A DNA stretch of 64,000 nucleotides. Source: Citreicoccus inhibens (lineage in GTDB: Bacteria; Myxococcota; Myxococcia; Myxococcales; Myxococcaceae). Shown piece after piece: positions 7,351-21,631 of the stretch (its first letter is position 1; each line of letters begins with the position of its first letter). Made by a program: the position numbers and the translations under genes. The stretch lies in assembly GCF_019039035.1 (NCBI RefSeq), contig NZ_JAHNZT010000041.1, forward strand, positions 1 through 64,000, in the 5' to 3' direction. The notes under the pieces are model-generated. The model saw only the letters and a program-made list of their open reading frames with translations. It was not told the origin of the DNA and ran no database searches.

Positions 7351-10300
7351 ATGCGTTTGAACTGGAATCCCCGGCCCGGGCTGGGGAGGCTGTGTGCACT
7401 GGTGTGCGCACTGGCTGCCGTGGCCTGTGGCGACATGGGCGCGCCCGCCCCCGAAGAGACTCCCGACGACACGGTGATGGCCACGGCGCAGCCCTTGGCC
7501 TTCTCGTCACCCATGAGCTTCGACGAGCTGCGCGGCCTGCCCCTGGCGCCCTCGACGCTGGACATGACGGTGCAGGACCTGCTGCGCGTGCTGCCCTCGC
7601 CGCGCTTCGATGACCTGCGCGGCGTCCTCAGCACCAAGCACCAGCCCGCGGACAAGGTGCGCCTGGTGTCTGCCTATGCCCGGGACTACCCGGTCTTCCT
7701 CAAGGGCAATCAGGCCCTGCTGCCCAACGCGGACGGCGTGTTCGCCACGCAGTCCCCCGTCATCACCTGGGACACGCTGGGCGGCGGCGCGTGCAGCACC
7801 TCACACGCCTGCGCCAAGCTCTACGAGCCCACCACCGAGCTGCAGGACTACGCCGCCATCGTCATCGTCGCGCCCCGCGTGGAGCTGGCGGGTGCGGTGG
7901 AGACGGGCGGGACGAGCCTCATCATCGCGACGGGCGAGTTCGACTCGCATGACTTTCCGCTGCGCACCTCCCCGGGTGTCCGCGACGCGCTCCCGGACCC
8001 ACCGGACGGCACCGTCGCCCCCTCGGGCCGCAATGGCCGCAACGCGGGCCAGTTCGTCCTCTACGCCAACGTGCTCCGCGGCGTGCGCGTCAACGCCACG
8101 GGTGAGAAGGGCGAGGACGGCAAGGATGGCAAGGATGGTCAGGCCTCCGGCATCACGACGACCCTCACCGGCAGCCCCGGCCCCACCCCCACGGTCACGT
8201 GCAAGCTGGGCTCGATGGTCAAGCTGCCCCAGAGCGGTGGCAATGGCGGCGCGGCCGGGCGCTCGGGCGACATCATCGTCCGGTACACCGGCATCGTCGG
8301 GCGTGGCCTGGTGCGCGAACCCCAGAAGTCCGCGTACGTCACGCCCGAGCAGTGCTTCACCGACTCCAACCTCCACTGCCAGAGCTTGAAGTGCCGGTGG
8401 AACCCCTCCATCGCGCTCTGCGACATGCTGACCGAGGCGGACAACGCCCAGTGCTCGGACGGCATCGACAACGACCACAACGGCTACACGGACTGCGACG
8501 ACTACGCCTGCAGCAAGAACCCCCACGTCACGGTGTGCCCGGAGTCCTCCTGGTCGCAACTCCAGAAGGAGGTCTCCGCCGAGGCGTGCAGTGACGGCGT
8601 GGACAACGACGGCGACGGGAAGGTGGACTGCGCGGATCCGCAGTGCAGCGTGCGCTCCATCTGCCAGTCGAGCCACGTCGCCAACGGCGAGTTCTCCGAG
8701 CAGGCCTGCTCCAACGGCATCGACGATGACGGCGACGGCTACACGGACTGCCAGGACAACGGCTGCAAGGCTTCCGCGACCAACTGCGGCGGCTCGGGTG
8801 AGGGCGGCGAGGACAAGTGCGCCGACGGGCTCGACAACGACAACGACGGCCTGCCGGACTGCGAGGACCCGGGATGCTCCGGCACCGCCACGTGCAACCT
8901 CGGACCGGCCATCGCGTTCACCAGCGGCATGGAGGAGTCCACCGAGGCCGCCTGCCAGGATGGCCTGGACAACGACCTGGACGGCGACATCGATTGCGCG
9001 GACCGCGAGTGCCAGGTGAATCCGCGCGTCACCTCGTGCGGCAGCGAGCGCACGCTCCAGAACTGCACGGACGGCATCGACAACGACGGCGACGGGAAGG
9101 TGGACTGCGCCGACCCGGGCTGCGCGAACAACCCCTACGTGAAGGTGTGCGATGCCCAGTACTACCCCTTCCTCCAGGAGAGCACGACCGCCACGTGCAC
9201 GGACGGCCTGGACAACGACGGGGACCACTACGTCGATTGCGCGGACTACCAGTGCCTCAACAATCCGCTGGTCGCCGTCAGCGCCTGCGGCATCCAGGAG
9301 AACACCTTCGCGGCGTGCAGCGACGGCGTGGACAACGACGGCGACGGGAAGGTGGACTGCGCGGACGACAACTGCGCCTACAACCCCTTCTACGGGGACC
9401 TGCTCTGCCGCTCGACGGTGCAGACAGGCCATGACGTGTCGCTGAGCTCGCCATACAACGGCCACTTCACGGACCTGGCCGCGGAGTTCATCAACCCCGC
9501 GCCCGCCGTCGGCCGCTACGGCAAGCGCGGCAACCGCGCGAGCATCACGGTGCCCGTCATCGTGCAGGAGGCCCCCACGGGCTCGTGCGAGTTCTATGAC
9601 GACTACCTCTGTCAGCCGCACAACGAGACCCGCACTTGCTACGTCGGCCCCTCGGCCAACAACGGCACGGCGGGCGCCACTGGCACGCCGGGCGCGCAGA
9701 AGACCCTGCGCGTGGCGCGCCGGGACGTGGACATGCTGCGCGCGCTCCTCGCGCCGCAGACGTGGCGGGTGAGCGCCGCGCACGGCAACGCGCTCTTCAA
9801 GCGCGGCGAGCTGCCGTCGGCCTCGTTCCAGTACACCCAGGCGGTCATGGAGATGAGCGGCATCCTGTCCCAGGCCAAGCTGGACTGCGACGTGGCGCCC
9901 ACCGGCAAGCCCTTCCCGGACGTGTACCTGCACGGCGCGCTGTGCCCCATCCTCCGGCACGACGTGACGAAGCTCAGCTACATCCAATCGCAGCGCAACT
10001 TCTTCGGGTTGGCCAAGGACATGCCGCTCAACCCCCACGTGCGCTACGAGCAGCGCCGCACGCAGTTCAACACGCTGTACAGCGTGCTCGACAGCTCCGT
10101 GTCCAAGTGGTTGACCCTGTCCAACAGCTTGCAGCTGACGGCGTGGATGACGCAGCACCAGGGCGAGCTGAACAACGAGGTCATCGCCCTGGCCGCGGAC
10201 CTCGCCACCGCGGACCAGCGCGTCACCGTGGCGTCCGAATCCGCCAACGCGCTCCAGACGGCCATCGCCAACCGCAAGGCGGCCATTGACTTGCTGACGA

Positions 10301-11772
10301 CGGACATCCAGACGACGGATGCGCGCATCAAGGAGAAGTACGCGGCGCAGACGAAGGGCTTCGGCGACTTCCTGCTGGACCTGGTGGGCTCGGTGGCCTC
10401 CGCCTACGGCGGCCAGTTCCTCGCGGCCGTGGCGGGCAAGGCCGCGGATGCCCTGTGGAACGAGGTGAAGAACAGCTTCAAGTCCGAGTCGAGCAGCACG
10501 CCCGTGCCCGGTTCGGGCCCCGCGAGCCATGACGACAACTCGCTCCTGTCCGGCCTCTGGGACGCGCTCTCCGGCGCCGCCGCCGACGCGGCCAAGAGCA
10601 AGCCCTTCAAGGACAAGCTGAAGACGGGCGGCACGCAGCTGTGGGACATCATCAGCGGCAACCAGAAGACGGCGCCTCGGAGCGTCATCTCGGACGAGGT
10701 GAAGAAGGAGATCCTCAGCCAGTCGCAGGTGGAGATGACCCTGGACCTGCTGGACCTCCAGGCCCAGGTCACCAAGGCCCAGGCCGAGTACAAGCTGGCG
10801 ATGATGGAGCGGGACACGGTGCTGCTGCGTCAGCGCAACGCGGTGGCGGCGCGCGACGCGCTCCAGAGCATCGTGGACTTCGGCACCGGCACCGAGCTGC
10901 GCGGGTTTGACCAACTCCTGGTGGGTCAGCAGGTGTACTCCACCGCGACGCGCACGCTGGACGAGCTCATCTACCGTTACTGGGAGCTCATCCGCGTGGC
11001 CGAGTACCAGTACCTGCCCTTCGACCCTGCCACGGGCGACAGCGCCATCCCGACGGGCTTCCTCACGACGTATGACTTCAACCTGCTGACCTATCCGGAC
11101 ATGCAGACGAAGCTGGTGGCCCTGGACGACCTGCCCACGCACACCGTGCAGAGCCAGACGCTGTACTACCGCCGCGTGCCCGCGACGTCCTTCCACGCGC
11201 TCACGGTGGATGAGACGACGCGCATGAAGGACCTGGGCTCGCTCACCACCGCGCATCCCACCCTGGTGGGCGCGCGCTTCCAGGTGACGACCTCGGACCT
11301 GGCCGCCACGCCCGCGCTCGCGGCGCGCAACGGGCACCGCGTGCGCAACGTGCGCGTCAACCTGGTGACGGACACGGGCGCGCCGGTCTCCGTGGATGCC
11401 TTCCTGGTGCGCGACACCGTGGATGCGTTCCAGATGGGCACGTACGTGGCGGAGTTCGAGCTGGTGGACGTGGACCGCTTCCCCAATGGCAACCCACGCT
11501 CGGTCCTGCACTACATTCCGTTCACCGCGTGCGTCTCCACGCCGCCGGTGTGCAACGTGGCGGATCCAAGCTGCGCGACGCCCTTCCAGAACGCGGCCTT
11601 CTCCGACACGTGCAGCGTGGCGCCCAGCGGCTCCACGCCGGACAACAACTCGTTCTATGACCGAAGCCTGCTCGGGGAGTGGATGCTGGTGATGGACGCC
11701 TCCAGCTACACCGCGCTGGGCACGGTGCGCGCGGCGGAGGTCGTGTTCCAGGCCACGGGCACTCCCATCTAA
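7351..11772 (+). CDS. large lipoprotein with eight MopE-like Asp/Cys repeats
   Basis: 1473 residues. Lipoprotein signal with lipobox AVAC (Cys26); AAGGAG lies upstream. A Gly-rich collagen-like patch (GEKGEDGKDGKDG) lies at about 250-265. Residues about 365-690 hold eight copies of a Cys-framed acidic repeat, C-D-G-[IVL]-D-N-D-x-D-G-x-x-D-C-x-D-x-x-C, resembling the MopE/thrombospondin-type putative metal-binding motif and likely binding calcium. The following 600 residues contain long helices and a probable coiled coil (QAQVTKAQAEYKLAMMERD). The C-terminus is beta-rich. Such giant repeat lipoproteins are typical of myxobacterial surfaces. Role (adhesion, matrix or toxin-like) is not determinable from sequence. 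Confidence 0.88.
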   Translation: MRLNWNPRPGLGRLCALVCALAAVACGDMGAPAPEETPDDTVMATAQPLAFSSPMSFDELRGLPLAPSTLDMTVQDLLRVLPSPRFDDLRGVLSTKHQPADKVRLVSAYARDYPVFLKGNQALLPNADGVFATQSPVITWDTLGGGACSTSHACAKLYEPTTELQDYAAIVIVAPRVELAGAVETGGTSLIIATGEFDSHDFPLRTSPGVRDALPDPPDGTVAPSGRNGRNAGQFVLYANVLRGVRVNATGEKGEDGKDGKDGQASGITTTLTGSPGPTPTVTCKLGSMVKLPQSGGNGGAAGRSGDIIVRYTGIVGRGLVREPQKSAYVTPEQCFTDSNLHCQSLKCRWNPSIALCDMLTEADNAQCSDGIDNDHNGYTDCDDYACSKNPHVTVCPESSWSQLQKEVSAEACSDGVDNDGDGKVDCADPQCSVRSICQSSHVANGEFSEQACSNGIDDDGDGYTDCQDNGCKASATNCGGSGEGGEDKCADGLDNDNDGLPDCEDPGCSGTATCNLGPAIAFTSGMEESTEAACQDGLDNDLDGDIDCADRECQVNPRVTSCGSERTLQNCTDGIDNDGDGKVDCADPGCANNPYVKVCDAQYYPFLQESTTATCTDGLDNDGDHYVDCADYQCLNNPLVAVSACGIQENTFAACSDGVDNDGDGKVDCADDNCAYNPFYGDLLCRSTVQTGHDVSLSSPYNGHFTDLAAEFINPAPAVGRYGKRGNRASITVPVIVQEAPTGSCEFYDDYLCQPHNETRTCYVGPSANNGTAGATGTPGAQKTLRVARRDVDMLRALLAPQTWRVSAAHGNALFKRGELPSASFQYTQAVMEMSGILSQAKLDCDVAPTGKPFPDVYLHGALCPILRHDVTKLSYIQSQRNFFGLAKDMPLNPHVRYEQRRTQFNTLYSVLDSSVSKWLTLSNSLQLTAWMTQHQGELNNEVIALAADLATADQRVTVASESANALQTAIANRKAAIDLLTTDIQTTDARIKEKYAAQTKGFGDFLLDLVGSVASAYGGQFLAAVAGKAADALWNEVKNSFKSESSSTPVPGSGPASHDDNSLLSGLWDALSGAAADAAKSKPFKDKLKTGGTQLWDIISGNQKTAPRSVISDEVKKEILSQSQVEMTLDLLDLQAQVTKAQAEYKLAMMERDTVLLRQRNAVAARDALQSIVDFGTGTELRGFDQLLVGQQVYSTATRTLDELIYRYWELIRVAEYQYLPFDPATGDSAIPTGFLTTYDFNLLTYPDMQTKLVALDDLPTHTVQSQTLYYRRVPATSFHALTVDETTRMKDLGSLTTAHPTLVGARFQVTTSDLAATPALAARNGHRVRNVRVNLVTDTGAPVSVDAFLVRDTVDAFQMGTYVAEFELVDVDRFPNGNPRSVLHYIPFTACVSTPPVCNVADPSCATPFQNAAFSDTCSVAPSGSTPDNNSFYDRSLLGEWMLVMDASSYTALGTVRAAEVVFQATGTPI
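8446..9408 (+). repeat. eight tandem 90-130 bp repeats encoding Asp/Cys motif
   Basis: Eight in-frame units inside the large lipoprotein gene each encode a Cys, then DGxDNDxDG, a second DC and one or two more Cys. Three units share an almost identical stretch of about 40 bases centred on gacggcgacgggaaggtgga (near 8605, 9085 and 9340), implying recent duplication or gene conversion, while others have diverged. Spacing is irregular because the linkers between motifs vary. Confidence 0.85.
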
Positions 11773-11791: not shown

Positions 11792-11829
11792 CTCCGGACG
11801 GGCACGCGCGGAGGCGTGCCCGTCTGGAG
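11792..11829. terminator. bidirectional 16-bp stem terminator
   Basis: Arms 11792-11807 and 11814-11829 pair over 16 bp with a single G-T mismatch and a 6-base loop (gcggag). It lies exactly between the convergent ends of the repeat lipoprotein gene and the bpX6 gene, so it can end transcription in both directions. There is no long T run, as is usual in this GC-rich genome. Confidence 0.75.
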
Positions 11830-11840
11830 AGCCCCCCGCT

Positions 11841-14684
11841 TCAGCGAACGGGAACGCGCGACAACGCGCCGGTCTGGAGATTCAGCCAGACCACCCGCCC
11901 CAGTTCGTCGAAGCAGACGAGCGCGTCCGCGCTCAGGCGCACCCGGACCCGCTCGGCGCCCTCGAAGGACAGCCACGCGCACACGCGTCCGCGCAGGTTG
12001 GTGAGGCGCACCTGGGTCTCCTGCGCGGAGAGGTCGAGCTGCTCCGCCCGCCAGTTCGTTCCCAGCCACAAGGCCGAGAGCTTCGGCGAGAACTGCGAAG
12101 GGCTCCGCAATGAACGCCCCTGCGCCGGGGCCACCCAGGCCGGCGTCGACGAGCCCACGCAGTGGATGCTGCCCTCTCCATCCGGGGTGAGGGAGACGAC
12201 GAGGGGTGGCTCCTGGAGGGCCATCTCCGTGCGCGCGCGCAGCGTGGGCCCCGCCGCGAGGGCGTAGCTCCATCTCGACGGACGCTCCCCCGAGGCGATG
12301 AACGACATGCGCTCGGCATCCGCCTCCAGCCCCAGCACGCGACCGCCCACGTCCGTGACCCGCCAGAGGGCGCGCGGCGCGTCCGCCAGCGCGTCCAGCA
12401 TCAGCACGGTGTCCGCCACGGCGACGAACCACCGGTCGCCGTCATAGAGCGAGGACCAGGCGTGGAGTTGCGTGTCGCACCACGTGCTCGCCTGACGGCG
12501 GGACAGGTCCACGCGAGACACGCGCATCAAGTCCCCGCGCCGAGCCAACGCCAACGCTCGGTGTCCCTGCAACGCGACCACGAGACGGGAGGCCGGCACG
12601 TCGAAGTGCGCGAGCCGCTGGCCCGTGCGGTCCACCAGGCGCACGCCGGCCTCGCCCAGCGCGAGGAGGAGGCGATTGCCAGGCAGCACCGCCACGTCAT
12701 GAACGGGATACAACCCACGCTCCCGCTCCGTCACCCGCAGCGTTCGCGACGCCACCGTCGCGGCGTCGAACCAAGGAGAGGACGAAGTCGAGCCCTCGCG
12801 CAGCCGCGGCAGGTCGGTGCGCATCGCCACCAGCGCGCGCTCCTCGAGCAGGCTGTTCACGACGGCGACCGCGGCCCCGCTCGGGCCGGGGGCGCGCTCA
12901 CGCAGCAGCGCGCGCACGGTGGGCCCGAGCAACGCGTCACGCATCTCCGAGGCCGGCCCCGCATCCTCCAGCGCGGAGGCGAAGGCGAGCCGCTCCCAAG
13001 CCCGGTCGGGGTCCTCGTCCTCCAACAGCGCGCGCACCCGCTCTCGCGTCCGCTCGAAGTCCTCCAGGGAGAAGACCGCGCGCAGGGCCAGCAGCCGCGC
13101 TCCGGGCGGGCCTCCCAGGTCCGAGCCCAGCTCCAGCCATCGCGCAACCAAGGCGCGTGCATCAGGCAGGAACCGAGCGACGCGAATGGCCTGCTCCCAA
13201 TCTCCAGACTCGGCGAGCGAATCCGCCCAGAGCAGTCGCAGCGACTCGGACTCTGCGGGGTGGGTGCGGCCCAATCGCATCACCGCGTCCCCAAACGCCC
13301 CGGAGCGTCGCGCCACGGCCACCGCGCGCGTCAGGTCCTTCGCCAGGAACCACTGACGCACCACGAGCCCTGGAGCCAGTTGGTGCCCCTCGGCCACCTC
13401 CGCCGCGAGCTTGAATCGGCCGTGCCGCTCCAGGAAGGACACGGCTTCTTCATGCGCGCTCAGCAGTTCGGTCAGGACGAACGCTGCTTCCTCGATGCGG
13501 CCCTCGCGTTCCAGTCGCGTGAAGGCTTCTCGATAGCGCTGCTTGAGCAGCGCGTGGAGCTCGGGACCACCGCCGAAGTCCTGCCCGCTGCCCGTATCGG
13601 GCTTCGGCTGGATGCGCAGGTCGGCCCGCGGCGCGGGCGTCCCCAGCGAGAGCGGCACGGGCTGCTTCGACTCCCCACCCAAGGGGATGGCGTAGCGCAA
13701 GGCTTCATCGAGCTGCCCGGACTCGAACAGCCCAAGGAGGTTGCGCACATACGCGGCCTTGCGCTCGCCCAGCAGCGGCCCGAGCGGGGTATGGCGCATC
13801 AACCAGTCCGAAATCCGCTCGAACCAGCGGATGCGCGGCACGGCGGTGACGTCGCCCGGCGGCGTCGGCTCCACCTCGGTGACAGAGCGCTTCGGCCCCG
13901 TGGCGGCGCCGCGCTGAGGCGCGCCTTTCCGGTCGCCCGCCCGCAGCGCCTGACGGCCCGCCTGGGCGCCACGTGGACCTTGCGCCAGGGCCCGCTTCGC
14001 GCGGACCCACCGCGTCCCGCGCGTCAGCCCGCGGAGCAGCCCGGCCATCGCGCCCCAGAAGGCGCGACGCGCGACCGAGCCCGCTCCGGCCCCGTTCGTC
14101 CGAGCCAACGTCCCCGCGTGAGCGGTCGGTGTCCCTCGCGTCCCCGCCAGCAGTTGCTCCGCTTCCTTCGCGAGCCCAGGCAGCCCCGGGCCGAAGGACT
14201 CACGGGTGGGCGCGGGACGCAGCTCCAGATGAGGCACTTGGGGAGGTGGCGCGCCCAAGCCCTCCACCGCCATCTGCTGCCACCCGGCGACGTCGAGCCA
14301 CTCGGCGGGCTGCACGAGCCGCGCCTCTGACAGGGCATGCACGTTCGCGACGCCGGCGCTCGCGAGCACCACGGCCTCCGAGGAAACGCGCAGGCTCGCG
14401 CGCTCCTGGGGAAGCAGCGGCAGGGACAGGAGCACGCCCTCCTCCCACGTCAGCGGCAGCCCCAGCGCCTGCGCACAGTCCATGGTGCGCGAGGTCTCCC
14501 ACTGAAGCAGATATCCCTCCGCGACCTGGAGCACGACCGCGCCGGGCTCCCAGACAGCCAGCACCCGGCGGCGGGCTTCGGCCTCGCCCAGGAGCCGCGG
14601 ATCGAACCAGAGCGCCCGCGCGCTCACGGTGCCGCGATGCAGGTGCGCCCGAGGGCGAAGCCCCGTCTGCGCCGAGCCCCTCAC
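11841..14684 (-). CDS. bpX6-type protein of MoxR-vWA-beta-propeller ternary system
   Basis: 947 residues starting with GTG at 14684, which overlaps the stop of the upstream vWA gene (GTGA) and has CCAGGAG six bases before it. The N-terminal domain (about 20-180: ALWFDPRLLGEAEARRRVLAV, LGLPLTWEEGVLLSLPL, ending LVQPAEWLDVAGW) fits the bpX6 domain defined for these ternary systems. A Pro/Arg-rich linker follows, then a helical solenoid (about 330-610, with repeats such as ALRYAIPLGG, EEAAFVLTELLSAHEEA and WEQAIRVARFLPDA), then a C-terminal beta-propeller (about 640-947). Cytoplasmic, no signal. By family knowledge it should cooperate with the MoxR ATPase and vWA protein encoded upstream; the propeller is probably a recognition or scaffold surface. 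It is the last gene of the operon. Confidence 0.82.
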   Translation of the reverse strand: MRGSAQTGLRPRAHLHRGTVSARALWFDPRLLGEAEARRRVLAVWEPGAVVLQVAEGYLLQWETSRTMDCAQALGLPLTWEEGVLLSLPLLPQERASLRVSSEAVVLASAGVANVHALSEARLVQPAEWLDVAGWQQMAVEGLGAPPPQVPHLELRPAPTRESFGPGLPGLAKEAEQLLAGTRGTPTAHAGTLARTNGAGAGSVARRAFWGAMAGLLRGLTRGTRWVRAKRALAQGPRGAQAGRQALRAGDRKGAPQRGAATGPKRSVTEVEPTPPGDVTAVPRIRWFERISDWLMRHTPLGPLLGERKAAYVRNLLGLFESGQLDEALRYAIPLGGESKQPVPLSLGTPAPRADLRIQPKPDTGSGQDFGGGPELHALLKQRYREAFTRLEREGRIEEAAFVLTELLSAHEEAVSFLERHGRFKLAAEVAEGHQLAPGLVVRQWFLAKDLTRAVAVARRSGAFGDAVMRLGRTHPAESESLRLLWADSLAESGDWEQAIRVARFLPDARALVARWLELGSDLGGPPGARLLALRAVFSLEDFERTRERVRALLEDEDPDRAWERLAFASALEDAGPASEMRDALLGPTVRALLRERAPGPSGAAVAVVNSLLEERALVAMRTDLPRLREGSTSSSPWFDAATVASRTLRVTERERGLYPVHDVAVLPGNRLLLALGEAGVRLVDRTGQRLAHFDVPASRLVVALQGHRALALARRGDLMRVSRVDLSRRQASTWCDTQLHAWSSLYDGDRWFVAVADTVLMLDALADAPRALWRVTDVGGRVLGLEADAERMSFIASGERPSRWSYALAAGPTLRARTEMALQEPPLVVSLTPDGEGSIHCVGSSTPAWVAPAQGRSLRSPSQFSPKLSALWLGTNWRAEQLDLSAQETQVRLTNLRGRVCAWLSFEGAERVRVRLSADALVCFDELGRVVWLNLQTGALSRVPVR

Positions 14685-16501
14685 GCAAGCTCCTGGGTCA
14701 GCCGCAGCAGGACCTGTCGCGTGTTCAAGTCCCACATCACCAGCTCGCCGTCCTCCGTCCGCCAGCTCAACACCGGCATGCCGTGGCTCACCTCCGCCTG
14801 CACCACGCGACCCGCCGCGTCCGCGCAGCGCTCCAAGCGCCCCTCGGCGCCCACGAGCGAGAAGCTTCGCCGGGCGGCATCCAGGGTGATCAGCCGGGGC
14901 GCGTCATCGGTCGCGTCGACATAGACGCCCACCACACGCGACTCTTTCGGCACCGAGATGGGCTGAAGCTTCTGACCGAAGCCCACGCGCCAGGTGTCTC
15001 GCAGCGCCTGGACCGCGATGAGCGGTCCCGCCGCCTTGTGAAGCGCGGGACTCCATCCGAAGAAGGCCGGCCCTCCCTCGACGTTCAAGGGCGGCGCGCG
15101 AAGCCCGTCACGGCCCCACTTCAGCAGGGCCAGGGTCCAGGTCGTGTTCGGACGCCAGCCCTCCTCCTGGCAGGTCAGGAGCATCGCCTGTTCCCGCGCG
15201 GCACACGCGCTCGCGACCACCGCCCCCATCCCCACGGGCTCCAAGGTCAAGGCAGCCTCTCCAGGGAAGCTCTTCGTCCTGAACGCTCTGCCTTTCGCGT
15301 CCACCACGACCACGTGCTCCTGGCCCTCCGTGTCCCTGAAGGGCAACACCCGCCCCGGGAGCTGATTGGACCCTGGCGCGCATGGCAACAGGTCATCCGC
15401 CTGACTCGGCTTGAGGATGACCCGCTCCAACTCGCGACACGGACTGTGAAGCTGACCACGCAGGTTCAGCTCACCCTTCGCGGTTCGCGTCAGCAAGAGG
15501 AGCCCCCCACGGCCACGCCAACCCGCCGCCAGCAGGGTCTCTCCCGGCAAGGGCGCCAGGCGACGAGGCTTGGGCGTGGTCGCGTTCGGAGAGTTGGGGA
15601 TGATCTGGGCCAGGACCGAGCCGTCGTCCCGGAACAACACCATCCGGTGACCATCCCCTGAGTAGGCAAACCCGCGCAGCCGCGTGCCCGTCGTCACGGG
15701 CTTGGGCGCACGCCCTTGCACCGGCGAGCGCAGCAACCGCACGCACAGCTCCGGGGCGGGCAGCTCCAACACGAGCCGCTGTGCCGAGCGCGTCGGAGGC
15801 CTCACGTCGACATGCAGCACTCGCGCGCCCAGCGACATCGGCTCGCCGATCTCCACCCGGAACGCGCCTCGCGCCTCGGGCAACTGCCCCAGCCGCGACG
15901 AGCCCACGAGCCACAGCTCATCGGACCCGAGCGCCAGGGCCTCGCGCCATTCCGCGAGCCGCGAGGACCTCGGCGCGTCGAGGGTGCGGGCGTCGCACCA
16001 GGCTCGCAACGACTCCTCGGTCACCGCCTCGAACGGCGCGGCTCGCGGGGTGTGCTGTAGCACGGCCCACGCAAAGGTCACCCCCGCCGCCTCGGCGCGA
16101 CGGGCCAACGTGAGGAGCACCGCGAGTTGGGCGAGACGCGGGAGGCCCAGTTGCTCGGGGCCCGCGTCCAACAAGACCACCGAGCGGCGCGTGCGCCTGG
16201 GTTGTCGGAAGGACCGCTGGAGGAACGCCAGCTCGCCCATGGCCGCGCGGCGCACCAGCTCATCGGGCGCCTCCAGGGCCCAGAGCCACTCGGTGGTCAA
16301 CACACGCTCGAGCGGCCCACGGCGCGTCAGGCCGTCATAGCCCTCGGGCTCGCCGCCCGGCACGACCTCACCCGTCGCTCCCACCGGGCCTATCGCGGCG
16401 GACAACCGCATCAGCCACCGCCCCAGCGGCGCGCTGGCGTCATCGGGCAGCAGCGCGAGCTGGCGCGCCCACGGGCGCAGCGCGGGAGGCAACGCGCTCA
16501 C
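14681..16501 (-). CDS. vWA domain / beta-propeller protein of ternary system
   Basis: 606 residues. The GTG start at 16501 overlaps the bpX5 stop (GTGA) and is preceded by GGGGGGA. A helical N-terminus carries GYDGLTRRGPLERVLTTEWLW and PDELVRRAAMGELAFLQR, a block characteristic of the vWA proteins of MoxR-vWA-propeller systems. The vWA core follows at about 105-240 (SVVLLDAGPEQLGLPRLAQLA). Its MIDAS motif is degenerate: DAGPE replaces DxSxS. The C-terminal half (about 310-606) is a beta-propeller with repeated short strands and Gly-Asp turns. It links AAA ATPase action to targets in family models. It overlaps both neighbours by 4 bases, so production is strictly coupled. Confidence 0.87.
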   Translation of the reverse strand: MSALPPALRPWARQLALLPDDASAPLGRWLMRLSAAIGPVGATGEVVPGGEPEGYDGLTRRGPLERVLTTEWLWALEAPDELVRRAAMGELAFLQRSFRQPRRTRRSVVLLDAGPEQLGLPRLAQLAVLLTLARRAEAAGVTFAWAVLQHTPRAAPFEAVTEESLRAWCDARTLDAPRSSRLAEWREALALGSDELWLVGSSRLGQLPEARGAFRVEIGEPMSLGARVLHVDVRPPTRSAQRLVLELPAPELCVRLLRSPVQGRAPKPVTTGTRLRGFAYSGDGHRMVLFRDDGSVLAQIIPNSPNATTPKPRRLAPLPGETLLAAGWRGRGGLLLLTRTAKGELNLRGQLHSPCRELERVILKPSQADDLLPCAPGSNQLPGRVLPFRDTEGQEHVVVVDAKGRAFRTKSFPGEAALTLEPVGMGAVVASACAAREQAMLLTCQEEGWRPNTTWTLALLKWGRDGLRAPPLNVEGGPAFFGWSPALHKAAGPLIAVQALRDTWRVGFGQKLQPISVPKESRVVGVYVDATDDAPRLITLDAARRSFSLVGAEGRLERCADAAGRVVQAEVSHGMPVLSWRTEDGELVMWDLNTRQVLLRLTQELA

Positions 16502-16965
16502 CGGTCCCCCCAGGCCTGGAGCGTGGCGCGGTGCACGGGCCGCGCGGGGCCCAGGGGCACCAGCCACCGCGCATCCGGAATCACCGCGAGCGGCGTGCTC
16601 CCCCGTGGCACCTGCGCCACCAGCGCGCGCTCCCACAAGGGGAGCGGCACCTCGGGGCGCAAGGCACATGGCAGCACCAGTGAAGGCGCCAGGGGGTCGC
16701 GCCCCAGATAGAGCGCGCCATCCACCCACGGCAGCGTCTCGGCGTCTCCGAGCAACACGAGCACGCCTGCGCCCGCCACACCGCGCCATCGCGCGAGCTG
16801 GGCATCCGCGGCCTCCAGCCCGCGACGCTTCAGCGCGAGCGCGACGGGGCCCACGCCCACCACCGCGAGGGGCGTGAGTGGAATCGGACGGGGAAACCAG
16901 CGGGGCGCGACCGAGCCCACTGGCCCCACGGCTCGCGACGTCATGTGGGGCCCGCCAGAGGGCAC
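16498..16965 (-). CDS. bpX5-type protein of MoxR-vWA-beta-propeller ternary system
   Basis: 155 residues from the GTG at 16965 (GAGG upstream); an ATG at 16944 would remove seven residues. The sequence opens with RWFPRPIPLTPLAVVGVGPVAL and continues LVLLGDAETLPWVDGALYLGRDPLAPSLVLPC, ending with an Arg/Ala tail. Position between the MoxR and vWA genes, length and this pattern fit the bpX5 domain described for ternary systems. It lies 25 bases downstream of the MoxR stop and overlaps the vWA start. It has no catalytic motif; it probably bridges the ATPase and the propeller protein or senses a substrate. Assignment rests on pattern memory plus context. Confidence 0.75.
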   Translation of the reverse strand: MPSGGPHMTSRAVGPVGSVAPRWFPRPIPLTPLAVVGVGPVALALKRRGLEAADAQLARWRGVAGAGVLVLLGDAETLPWVDGALYLGRDPLAPSLVLPCALRPEVPLPLWERALVAQVPRGSTPLAVIPDARWLVPLGPARPVHRATLQAWGDR

Positions 16966-16990
16966 GCGGTGTCGAGCCTCGGTGGCGCGC

Positions 16991-18172
16991 TCACGCGACG
17001 CGGACCTCGGAGTCGACGTTGCCTTGGGCTGGTGCGGCCTGGAGCGCGGCCATCAACGACTCGCGCAGGACTCGCAGCGAGTCAGGACGGGCCTCCGGCG
17101 CGAAGCCCGCGTCCATCTCGCGCGCCACGCCCTCGAGCTTGAGTCGCCAGGACGCGAGCGCCTCGACCTCGGAGTCGAGCGGGCGCGCGGCCAGCAAGGC
17201 ACGCCCCGCCTCGGCGATGCGCTGGGCTCGGGCCAGGGGGCCCGCGCTGGCCTCCAAGGCCGCCGCGGCCAGCGTCGCGCTCTCCGAGGCCGCGAGCTGC
17301 TCGCGCAGCACCTCACGCGCGAGCGCCTGCGCGTCTTGCGTCGGCACCGCGTAGACGAGCGGCCACAGGTCCGCCGCGGTGGGCTCGCGACGTCCGGCCA
17401 GCACGGCGGCGGCGGCGATCAACCGCTGCGTCTTCACCACGCGCCGGTCCGTCAGCGCGATGCCCGCGCCACGCAGCGTGCGCAGCGCGTGTGCCAGGTG
17501 GGGCCTCACGCGCCCCAGCTCCACCGCGCGCGCGGCCTGGGTGAGCACATCCAGCGACGCCAGCGAGGCCACGCGCGGCTCCGAGGCGGACCACAGCCGC
17601 GCTCCCCCCGACAGCAAATCCTCCAGCCGCGCGTCGGGCACGGGCTCGATGAAGATGCGCGCGAGGAAGCGGTCCGCGAAGGCCGCCAGCGCTGGCTCCT
17701 CGGGCAACGCGTTGGCCGCGCCCACGCACACCCTCAAGGGACAGCGCATCCGCGTGTGGCCCCGCCGGAACGTGCGCTCGTTGAGCAGCCCGAGCAGCGT
17801 GTTGAGGATGGCGGTGGAGCCGAGGAAGACCTCGTCGAGGAAGGCCACCTCCGCCTCGGGCAACATGCCCGTGGTCTCCGTCTCCACGGTGCCCTCACGC
17901 AGCTTGCGCAGGTCCACCGGGCCGAACAGCTCGGAGGGCTCGGTGAAGCGCCCCAGGAGGTATTCGAAGTAGGAGCCCCCCAGTCCCCGCGCCGTGCGGC
18001 GCACGGCCTCGCTCTTGGCGGTGCCTGGAGGACCGATGACGAGCAGGTGCTCCTCCGCCACGGCGGACAGCGCGACGAGCTCCACCATGGCCTCGCGCTC
18101 GACGAGCCCCTGCCCCGCATCGACGAGGGCCTCGCGAAGGGAAGCGACCGCGGCTTCGAAAGTGACCGACAT
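16991..18172 (-). CDS. MoxR-family AAA+ ATPase of ternary system
   Basis: 393 residues. Walker A is GPPGTAKS, followed by the MoxR signature YFEYLLGRFTEPSELFGPVD. Walker B is VAFLDEVF, sensor 1 is GAANALPEE, and the arginine-finger region is FADRFLARIFIEPVPD. The C-terminal lid helices cover about 190-280, with a further Ala-rich helical tail. All ATPase residues are present. MoxR ATPases remodel protein complexes together with vWA partners, here encoded two genes downstream. The closeness to bpX5, vWA and bpX6 genes marks this as the motor of a ternary system. Starts at ATG 18172, 10 bases after the cupin stop, so the cupin gene probably shares its transcript. Confidence 0.92.
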   Translation of the reverse strand: MSVTFEAAVASLREALVDAGQGLVEREAMVELVALSAVAEEHLLVIGPPGTAKSEAVRRTARGLGGSYFEYLLGRFTEPSELFGPVDLRKLREGTVETETTGMLPEAEVAFLDEVFLGSTAILNTLLGLLNERTFRRGHTRMRCPLRVCVGAANALPEEPALAAFADRFLARIFIEPVPDARLEDLLSGGARLWSASEPRVASLASLDVLTQAARAVELGRVRPHLAHALRTLRGAGIALTDRRVVKTQRLIAAAAVLAGRREPTAADLWPLVYAVPTQDAQALAREVLREQLAASESATLAAAALEASAGPLARAQRIAEAGRALLAARPLDSEVEALASWRLKLEGVAREMDAGFAPEARPDSLRVLRESLMAALQAAPAQGNVDSEVRVA

Positions 18173-19273: not shown

Positions 19274-19867
19274 ATGAACGAGTGGTCGAGGCGAGTCGTG
19301 GTGCTGGTCGCGCTGGGGCTGGGAACGGAGGCGGTCGCGGAGGGCTGGCATGGCTATGCATCCCTCGGCGCGGGCGTCACGCTGGACGCCCTGAGTGAGT
19401 GGCGGGCCAAGGGTCCCGCGCTGCAAGGGTATCTGGGCGTGGAGGCGCCCCCCGGACTGTCCCTCGGGGTCATCCTCGAGGGCGCGGAGACGTGGGGAAA
19501 GGAATTCAGCCTGGCGGAGGACCCCTCCCAGCGCGGGCGCGTGCAGCTCGATTACAAGGCATTGGGTCTGGAGGCGCGCCTGCGCTTCTTCCGCGACAAG
19601 CCCATCAACCCGTGGCTGGGCGTGCGCCTGGCCCGCAGCTGGGCGAAGCCGCTCACCCCGGACGACCTGGGGCGCTTGCGCCGCGAGAAGTTCGAGGTCA
19701 CCAGCATGGCCTTCCGCCTGGGCGTGGATGGCTGGGTGGGAGACCACTGGGGCCTCTCCCTGGCGGCGGCCATGCAATGGTGTGACGTGAAGTTCACCAA
19801 GAGCGTCTTCTCCGAGTGCACCAAGCCCTTGCAGACCGTGGTCGTGGGGCCGGTGGCGCGCTTCTGA
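19274..19867 (+). CDS. exported hypothetical protein, probable small outer-membrane barrel
   Basis: 197 residues with an N-terminal signal peptide (VVVLVALGLGTEAVAEG). The mature part alternates short strands with Gly-rich turns (GYASLGAGVTLDAL, YLGVEAPPGLSLGVILEGAETWG, LEARLRFFRDKPINPWLGVRLARSW) and ends GPVARF, with a terminal aromatic residue typical of outer-membrane beta-barrels. Family not recognised. Monocistronic; 40 bases downstream of the Cys-rich lipoprotein. Confidence 0.65.
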   Translation: MNEWSRRVVVLVALGLGTEAVAEGWHGYASLGAGVTLDALSEWRAKGPALQGYLGVEAPPGLSLGVILEGAETWGKEFSLAEDPSQRGRVQLDYKALGLEARLRFFRDKPINPWLGVRLARSWAKPLTPDDLGRLRREKFEVTSMAFRLGVDGWVGDHWGLSLAAAMQWCDVKFTKSVFSECTKPLQTVVVGPVARF

Positions 19868-20668: not shown

Positions 20669-21631
20669 TCACGGCGAGGGCTTGAGGATGTCCACCTGGA
20701 AGGACACGCCCTCGTCGCGCGCGTACACGCTCGCGCCCGGAGCGGCCCGCGAGGGCGCCACCTCTCCCGAGGACTGGAGCGTCCCCACGCGCACGCGACG
20801 CGAGTCCGCGTTGACGCGCTGGGCGAGCCGCTCCAACCACGCCTCGGACGAGAGCGGCGCCTCCAGCAGCAGCGGGTGGCTCTCCACGTCGTGACCCTCG
20901 CGGTCGAAGACGCGCAACGTCACCGTGCTGCGCGCGGGCAGCGCCTCACGGGCCTGCACCTGTCCCAGCTCCTTCCAAGGCGCGACGAGCCCGAGCCCCG
21001 TGCCGAACGTCACGTCGCTGCACGAGTAGAACGCCTCCGGGCTGTCCGAGCGCTGCCAGATGGCATAGACGACATGCGAGCCCGTCTTGTTGCGCGGCAG
21101 CGGGCAGTTGATGCGGAAGCGATTGTTCTGCGCCGTGATGCTCGTCACCGCGCAGAACGGCGCCGCCTCCAGGTCCGACCACTTCAGCGGCTGCGCGGGG
21201 TTGTAGCCATCGCGCGTCACGTAGAGCTGGAAGTAGGCGGTGGCGTGCACCGCGGTGGCATAGAAGACGAACTCGAAGTTGCCCGAGGCGTCTGGCGTCA
21301 GCACGCGGGACACCCAGTCCGTCCGCGCGAGGTCCAACCCCTTGTGGCTTTCATTGCCACCGCTGCACAGCTTCCCGTCCGGGATGAGCGCACGGTGGTT
21401 GCCGTTGGCGTTGCCCTGGCGCACGCCGTTCCAGTCATACAGCGCCTGCGTGCCACCCACTTGAATCGCGGCCTTGCACGCGGCGGACTTCGGGCTCTCG
21501 GGTCCCTCCTTGTAGCATTGGTAGACACGGCTGATGGGCACCTCCATGGAGCCGTGGGCCAGGGCCTGGCCCGCCAGCAGGGAGGACAACAACACCAGCG
21601 GCGCGACTGCACTCAGGTTCTTGGTCTGCAT
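20669..21631 (-). CDS. AA10-family lytic polysaccharide monooxygenase (chitin-binding)
   Basis: 320 residues. The signal peptide ends LAGQALA and the mature protein begins with His26, the copper-binding N-terminal histidine of the LPMO histidine brace; the second His is H129 in FYATAVHATAYF. The AA10 domain (26 to about 215) carries the usual Cys pairs and ends CSDVTFG with the axial Phe. The C-terminal roughly 100 residues (ARSTVTLRVFDREGHDVESH) resemble GbpA domain 2. The enzyme would oxidatively cleave chitin or cellulose outside the cell, fitting a predatory, saprophytic myxobacterium. Divergent from the Ser/Thr kinase gene (148-base spacer). Confidence 0.92.
   Translation of the reverse strand: MQTKNLSAVAPLVLLSSLLAGQALAHGSMEVPISRVYQCYKEGPESPKSAACKAAIQVGGTQALYDWNGVRQGNANGNHRALIPDGKLCSGGNESHKGLDLARTDWVSRVLTPDASGNFEFVFYATAVHATAYFQLYVTRDGYNPAQPLKWSDLEAAPFCAVTSITAQNNRFRINCPLPRNKTGSHVVYAIWQRSDSPEAFYSCSDVTFGTGLGLVAPWKELGQVQAREALPARSTVTLRVFDREGHDVESHPLLLEAPLSSEAWLERLAQRVNADSRRVRVGTLQSSGEVAPSRAAPGASVYARDEGVSFQVDILKPSP

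Follow-up and report, generated by a model that had tools for sequence, protein, structure and literature searches.

What does a MoxR-type AAA+ ATPase do when it is encoded together with two β-propeller proteins? This question is raised by four adjacent minus-strand genes of Citreicoccus inhibens, located in the stretch of 64,000 nucleotides analyzed in this study (contig NZ_JAHNZT010000041.1, positions 1 to 64,000; hereafter the window). The operon is a complete, intact copy of the MoxR-vWA-β-propeller system, and we assign a probability of roughly 0.45 to the reading that its four proteins constitute one membrane-attached AAA+ machine in which the propellers are recognition surfaces and MoxR remodels the bpX6 protein. 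The system was already predicted from genome comparisons as subsystem 4, the β-propeller subsystem, with a predicted role in biological conflict (Kaur 2020, PMC7159879), and the window copy adds one member. No experimental paper on the system was found in the literature searched, and PADLOC held no model matching any of the operon proteins. The four genes are as follows.

16991..18172, minus strand: bpMoxR, a MoxR-clade AAA+ ATPase of 393 amino acids with an ATG start (Pfam PF20030, 1.9e-82)
16498..16965, minus strand: bpX5, 155 amino acids, GTG start (Pfam PF19921, 1.1e-23)
14681..16501, minus strand: vWA/propeller protein, 606 amino acids, GTG start (AlphaFold2 model, alignment of 62 relatives)
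11841..14684, minus strand: bpX6 protein, 947 amino acids, GTG start (Pfam PF19922, 2.8e-35, residues 12-179; AlphaFold2 model)

Pfam assigned bpMoxR, bpX5, and bpX6 to their families; the 606-residue protein, which has no Pfam match, is identified as the expected fourth component by gene order and predicted structure. In bpMoxR, the P-loop GPPGTAKS at residue 47 represents the GxxxTAKS variant described for the MoxR of the β-propeller subsystem (PMC7159879), and the Walker B motif LDEVF is located at residue 112. The closest solved structure was RavA (1.1e-35), and the window MoxR scored 140.5 bits against the RavA equivalog of NCBIfam, below the cut-off of 681, indicating that it is related to RavA but is not RavA. 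The genome also carries another, less closely related MoxR-like gene (G000:C94:9823-10347, minus strand; PF20030, 3.6e-21; 860-amino-acid frame), which may be part of a different MoxR system. All four reading frames of the operon are open; GTGA overlaps join bpX5 to the vWA gene (16498-16501) and the vWA gene to bpX6 (14681-14684), and a gap of 25 nucleotides separates MoxR from bpX5. The sequence-only reading, an earlier annotation of this DNA, had described the four genes, both MoxR motifs, both overlaps, and an intact operon followed by a 16-bp hairpin, all of which we recovered; the AlphaFold2 models also agreed with its C-terminal propeller in the vWA protein and its solenoid and propeller in bpX6. 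Its protein identities held by profile for MoxR, bpX5, and bpX6, and by order and structure for the fourth gene, whose vWA domain profile comparison did not confirm.

The AlphaFold2 models were built on alignments of the window proteins with those of the related loci. The model of the vWA protein (mean predicted local distance difference test score [pLDDT] 89.6) comprised an alpha/beta domain at approximately residues 90-260 and a propeller at residues 265-604, in which 27-28 strands were counted, indicating seven blades. This propeller is WD40-like (VIA-align Z up to 15.1, root-mean-square deviation 4.0 over 269 residues; profile matches to WD40 structures down to 4.1e-19). The 606-residue protein had no Pfam match, the matches of its 62 relatives included no vWA family, and the vWA label was not confirmed by profile comparison. 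At the position of the metal ion-dependent adhesion site (MIDAS), the DxSxS motif is replaced by DxGPxQ, in which the aspartate follows a predicted strand; D112, G114, Q117, and G119 are invariant in the alignment of the 62 relatives. This replacement agrees with the published remark that some vWA domains of the β-propeller subsystem lack the MIDAS aspartates (PMC7159879).

The model of bpX6 (mean pLDDT 84.0) comprised a bpX6 domain folded at residues 12-135 (the profile extends to 179), a disordered basic linker at 186-282 with one helix at 208-218, an alpha-solenoid at 284-624, and a propeller of the WD40-type fold at 645-945, counted as seven-bladed (VIA-align Z up to 20.2); a profile search against PDB sequences yielded nothing useful. 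The structure searches of the vWA protein and bpX6 were filled by propeller matches and barely tested the N-terminal domains, and the WD40-type matches of both propellers say nothing about function. The joining of an alpha-solenoid to a propeller, together with a membrane-type linker, brings to mind a membrane-coat-like scaffold, in which the solenoid and propeller of bpX6 would shape or cover a membrane and MoxR-vWA would drive disassembly. The usual order in coat proteins is propeller then solenoid, the reverse of that in bpX6, and the hits from Foldseek and VIA lie almost entirely within the propeller and correspond to generic WD40 folds, not to coats specifically. We regard a coat as very improbable, even though eukaryotic coats and PVC coat-like proteins are also reported to combine propellers with helical repeats (PMC2799638).

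The order MoxR-bpX5-vWA-bpX6 was kept in 31 Myxococcaceae loci (truncated contigs show only what they contain) and was the same in relatives from Myxococcota, Pseudomonadota, Acidobacteriota, and Actinomycetota. A bpX5 match was present in 77 of 80 related loci, and at each of the three junctions the most frequent spacing across phyla was a 4-nucleotide stop/start overlap (31, 50, and 42 loci). Of 145 genomes of the order, 60 carried both bpX6 and bpX5, and one further, incomplete genome had bpX5 but no bpX6; each gene was only ever present as a single copy. The system behaves as a four-gene unit with bpX5 as an obligatory member, not as a ternary one; the term ternary, used in the sequence-only reading, fits the published class but not this behavior. 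Another of its statements, that such systems are enriched in multicellular bacteria, is weak for this subsystem: the published enrichment is 44 of 118 organisms (P = 0.0094; PMC7159879, Table 1), and the gene set occurs commonly in Pseudomonas, Massilia, and Janthinobacterium and frequently in Oxalobacteraceae.

Some Myxococcaceae genera carry extra genes between MoxR and bpX5, and MoxR is located approximately 12 kb from the bpX5 gene in one genome (G083). The gap in an Archangium-group genome (G048; L034:5800-7647) holds a gene for a predicted lipoprotein of 309 amino acids with no Pfam match, adjacent to a TsiV-family type VI immunity gene (PF11876, 4.1e-42), and this inserted pair is possibly a nuclease effector with its immunity protein. 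In Massilia rubra (L113:9995-14170), three neighboring genes with the vWA/propeller profile lie downstream of one MoxR, a possible local expansion.

The two propellers are fast-evolving, whereas the motor (MoxR) and the adaptor domains are conserved. When the window was compared with its congener G055, identity was 94% for MoxR and 91-98% for the flanking proteins, but 67% for the vWA protein and only 37-48% for its residues 351-550. The vWA propeller was more divergent than both MoxR and the N-terminal half of the same protein in 22 of 23 within-genus pairs, the exception being a very close pair (L048/L049); among congeners, this propeller was mostly 39-83% identical compared with 89-99% for MoxR. 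The bpX6 linker and propeller mostly showed the same pattern. The TolB propeller, used as a control, was 85-98% identical in 14 of the same pairs, indicating that fast evolution is not a property of propellers generally. Tree-based omega values in Corallococcus were 0.18 for MoxR (residues 1-300), 0.16-0.29 for the vWA N-terminus, 0.55-0.69 for the vWA propeller, and 0.96 for bpX6 residues 801-947, and the mean column entropy in alignment A1 was 2.14 for the propeller versus 1.37 for the N-domain.

This pattern bears on the explanation that the operon encodes a dedicated membrane-complex chaperone of the RavA-ViaA/NorQ-NorD kind, in which MoxR and the vWA protein would insert, activate, or repair one particular inner-membrane enzyme or lipid state and the propellers would dock the client. 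A constant client predicts TolB-like conservation of the propellers, which are instead the fastest parts. The kinship of MoxR with RavA, its closest solved relative, speaks for a chaperone, as does the precedent that the characterized MoxR-vWA pairs are reported to be chaperones or membrane regulators, namely NorQ/NorD (PMC9976466) and RavA-ViaA (PMC9489729, PMC10585395).

The chromosomal site provided further evidence on this point. In most Myxococcaceae loci, the operon adjoins the same gene for a predicted exported (outer-membrane-type) protein, and often an esterase gene that is likewise the same, and most checked genomes without the system keep those neighbors. The window copy of the former (19274-19867, plus strand) encodes a predicted exported protein of 197 amino acids with no Pfam family; it is the most constant Myxococcaceae neighbor and is kept after operon loss. 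In three genomes (G101, G110, and G112), the exported-protein gene is joined directly to a histidine-kinase gene, which lies downstream in carriers, with alignable junction sequence; a fourth (G113) is similar, with an eroded kinase gene, and a separate clean deletion is found in G047, a member of the Archangium group. G095 retains a broken MoxR together with tail fragments of bpX6, and MoxR residues 1-65 and 260-274 remain in G118. The genus group to which the Myxococcus carriers belong includes several genomes from which the cassette has been deleted. From these different end states we infer several separate losses, and the loss in place, with clean junctions or remnants, suggests conditional usefulness.

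The MoxR tree broadly tracks host families. One record titled Comamonas sp. KCTC 72670 (L085) contains an operon of myxobacterial type, which this tree places within Myxococcus, and the organism label of the record is probably wrong. No phage record and only one plasmid record matched the vWA protein, and the flanks in other phyla comprised ordinary metabolic genes, with no Pfam family in more than 3 of 110 flanking proteins. A mobile defense island was rejected as the general picture because of the absence of phage matches, the single plasmid, the conserved Myxococcaceae flanks, and the lack of a recurring defense family in the flanks elsewhere, the last of which was judged with no matched control set.

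A locus that is fixed, single-copy, and apparently vertical in Myxococcaceae, with ordinary metabolic flanks elsewhere, is what a chaperone would lead one to expect; the absence of a conserved client gene beside the operon and the outright loss of the system in close relatives are not. We hold the chaperone explanation, the most serious competitor of the machine that we favor, tentatively, at clearly less than even odds. The conserved location is also compatible with a self/non-self or competition device of social bacteria, in which polymorphic propellers would serve as identity tags between neighboring cells. Both propellers diverge at the species level, and the operon gap of one Archangium-group genome holds the TsiV-type immunity gene; nevertheless, the system is frequent in Pseudomonas and Oxalobacteraceae and none of the window proteins has an apparent exported part, and we consider such a device quite unlikely.

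The linker of bpX6 suggests a probable membrane attachment. Of 52 aligned bpX6 proteins, 17, mainly from Pseudomonas, Oxalobacteraceae, and Actinomycetota, had a predicted transmembrane-grade helix in the linker, a feature that therefore does not define the family. Two linker helices with a short loop were recognized by eye in L139, L127, L129, L128, and L145 (seen in Pseudomonas and Actinomycetota), an arrangement that would place both bpX6 ends on the same side of the membrane, presumably in the cytoplasm. The Myxococcaceae linkers are without a transmembrane helix, and 22 of them contained 57 basic amphipathic motifs versus 0.4 expected from shuffled linkers (consensus [LFW][LF]xRLxx[FLW][FLW]; the copy number varies between species). 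The window bpX6 likewise has no transmembrane segment (best 19-residue Kyte-Doolittle mean 1.29 overall and 0.79 in the linker) and carries the following feature.

14001..14066, minus strand: basic amphipathic segment of bpX6, residues 207-228, RAFWGAMAGLLRGLTRGTRWVR, hydrophobic moment 0.56-0.60

This segment occupies the linker position aligned to the transmembrane helices of relatives (window residues/columns 210-230), although alignment inside the disordered linker is loose and the safe statement concerns topological position only, between the bpX6 domain and the solenoid. The transmembrane linkers elsewhere, together with the amphipathic motifs in Myxococcaceae, suggest that the complex is probably located on the inner membrane.

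Overall, the system resembles a device for sensing and responding more than it does a routine housekeeping enzyme. In the membrane-attached machine that we favor, the four proteins would assemble into a single complex at the cytoplasmic side of the inner membrane, with bpX6 as the membrane-tethered arm, the vWA protein coupling bpX6 to the MoxR hexamer, and bpX5 as a small obligatory subunit. The two propellers would recognize a rapidly changing ligand, which may be a protein of an invader or a competitor or else a quickly changing marker of self. With the ligand bound, MoxR would be able to hydrolyze ATP and remodel bpX6, altering the contact of bpX6 with the membrane; arrest, permeabilization, or containment are candidate responses.

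Several results weigh against this reading. No convincing site-level positive selection was detected among 13 Corallococcus sequences, a sample of low power, and high omega values are equally expected from relaxed constraint. Synonymous divergence was also raised in the vWA gene, and recombination may therefore explain part of the vWA signal. A comparison with CoxE-type vWA domains by hhalign, with only six sequences on one side, revealed no similarity. No known effector domain was found in the four proteins. The window linker has only one motif match, just before the solenoid, and one strong amphipathic stretch, at 207-228. Finally, a non-mobile, single-copy system at a fixed site in one family, with no defense island seen, is unusual for anti-phage defense. 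The fast propellers and the loss in place favor recognition, whereas the fixed site and the lack of an effector domain favor a chaperone.

The linker itself may be the effector of these "effector-less" β-propeller ternary systems: after the propellers detect their ligand, a pull by MoxR would drive the transmembrane hairpin (Pseudomonas and Actinomycetota) or the amphipathic-helix array (Myxococcaceae) into the inner membrane, arresting or killing the cell. We regard this conjecture as unlikely. The label "conflict or regulated-death system," given in the sequence-only reading, is a hypothesis; it fits the fast propellers and fits poorly with a fixed, single-copy, non-mobile, non-island location. 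The class was predicted in 2020, and the present survey provides a testable anatomy, namely a four-gene unit, two fast recognition-type surfaces, and a membrane tether that differs between lineages. Myxococcus xanthus AM003, Pseudomonas, and Janthinobacterium are tractable carriers, and natural deletion relatives exist. If the propellers bind invader or competitor proteins, the system would be a bacterial sensor of a new type, equipped with an AAA+ switch.

The operon is bordered downstream by the following feature.

11792..11829, minus strand: inverted repeat 3' of bpX6, arms 11792-11807 and 11814-11829, 6-nucleotide loop

The 16-nucleotide arms of this hairpin are paired at 15 of 16 positions, with -41.9 kcal/mol over a 66-nucleotide stretch (z -4.4) and no U-run. 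It lies between the operon and a convergent gene ending at 11772, and is a plausible candidate terminator, possibly shared with that gene. The convergent gene (7351-11772, plus strand) encodes a lipoprotein-like protein of 1473 amino acids with several CxDGxDNDxDGxxDCADxxC repeats and no Pfam match; it also adjoins the operon in congener G055 (92%) and was not present in the other loci read. On the other side, a lytic polysaccharide mono-oxygenase gene (20669-21631, minus strand; LPMO_10, 6.3e-59; with a GbpA_2 domain) adjoins an esterase gene and a gene for a serine/threonine kinase with PEGA and TPR domains.

Compared with the published description of the MoxR-vWA β-propeller systems (PMC7159879), the window operon shares the GxxxTAKS bpMoxR, a protein with a putative, divergent vWA-like domain and a C-terminal propeller, a third component with a variable N-terminal part, repeats, and a propeller, and bpX5. 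The propellers, described as having about four blades, are predicted here to be seven-bladed, and bpX5, an optional extra in the description, is an obligatory fourth gene in this branch. The published account of the group includes a membrane-spanning stretch within the third component's variable region, although not as a universal feature (PMC7159879); in Myxococcaceae, basic amphipathic-helix motifs are found instead. The FtsH ternary systems (subsystem 3, PMC7159879) share the TAKS P-loop variant and a divergent vWA (putative in the window protein), but their FtsH component is absent among the four window genes. The VMAP ternary systems (subsystem 1, PMC7159879) share the MoxR-vWA core and the combination of a constant motor with a variable recognition part, but the window operon is without VMAP, a peptidase, or a known effector domain. 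They also include versions diversified by diversity-generating retroelements (PMC10907252), whereas the variation observed here is ordinary sequence divergence; no such retroelement was noticed at the operon, with no dedicated genome search made. The nearest experimentally studied analogue of the window system is RavA-ViaA of E. coli, which comprises two genes, without propellers, bpX5, or bpX6, but shares the MoxR-vWA pair, with the vWA putative in the window system, and provides the nearest solved relative; RavA is reported to work together with the vWA protein ViaA at the inner membrane and to bind particular phospholipids (PMC9489729).

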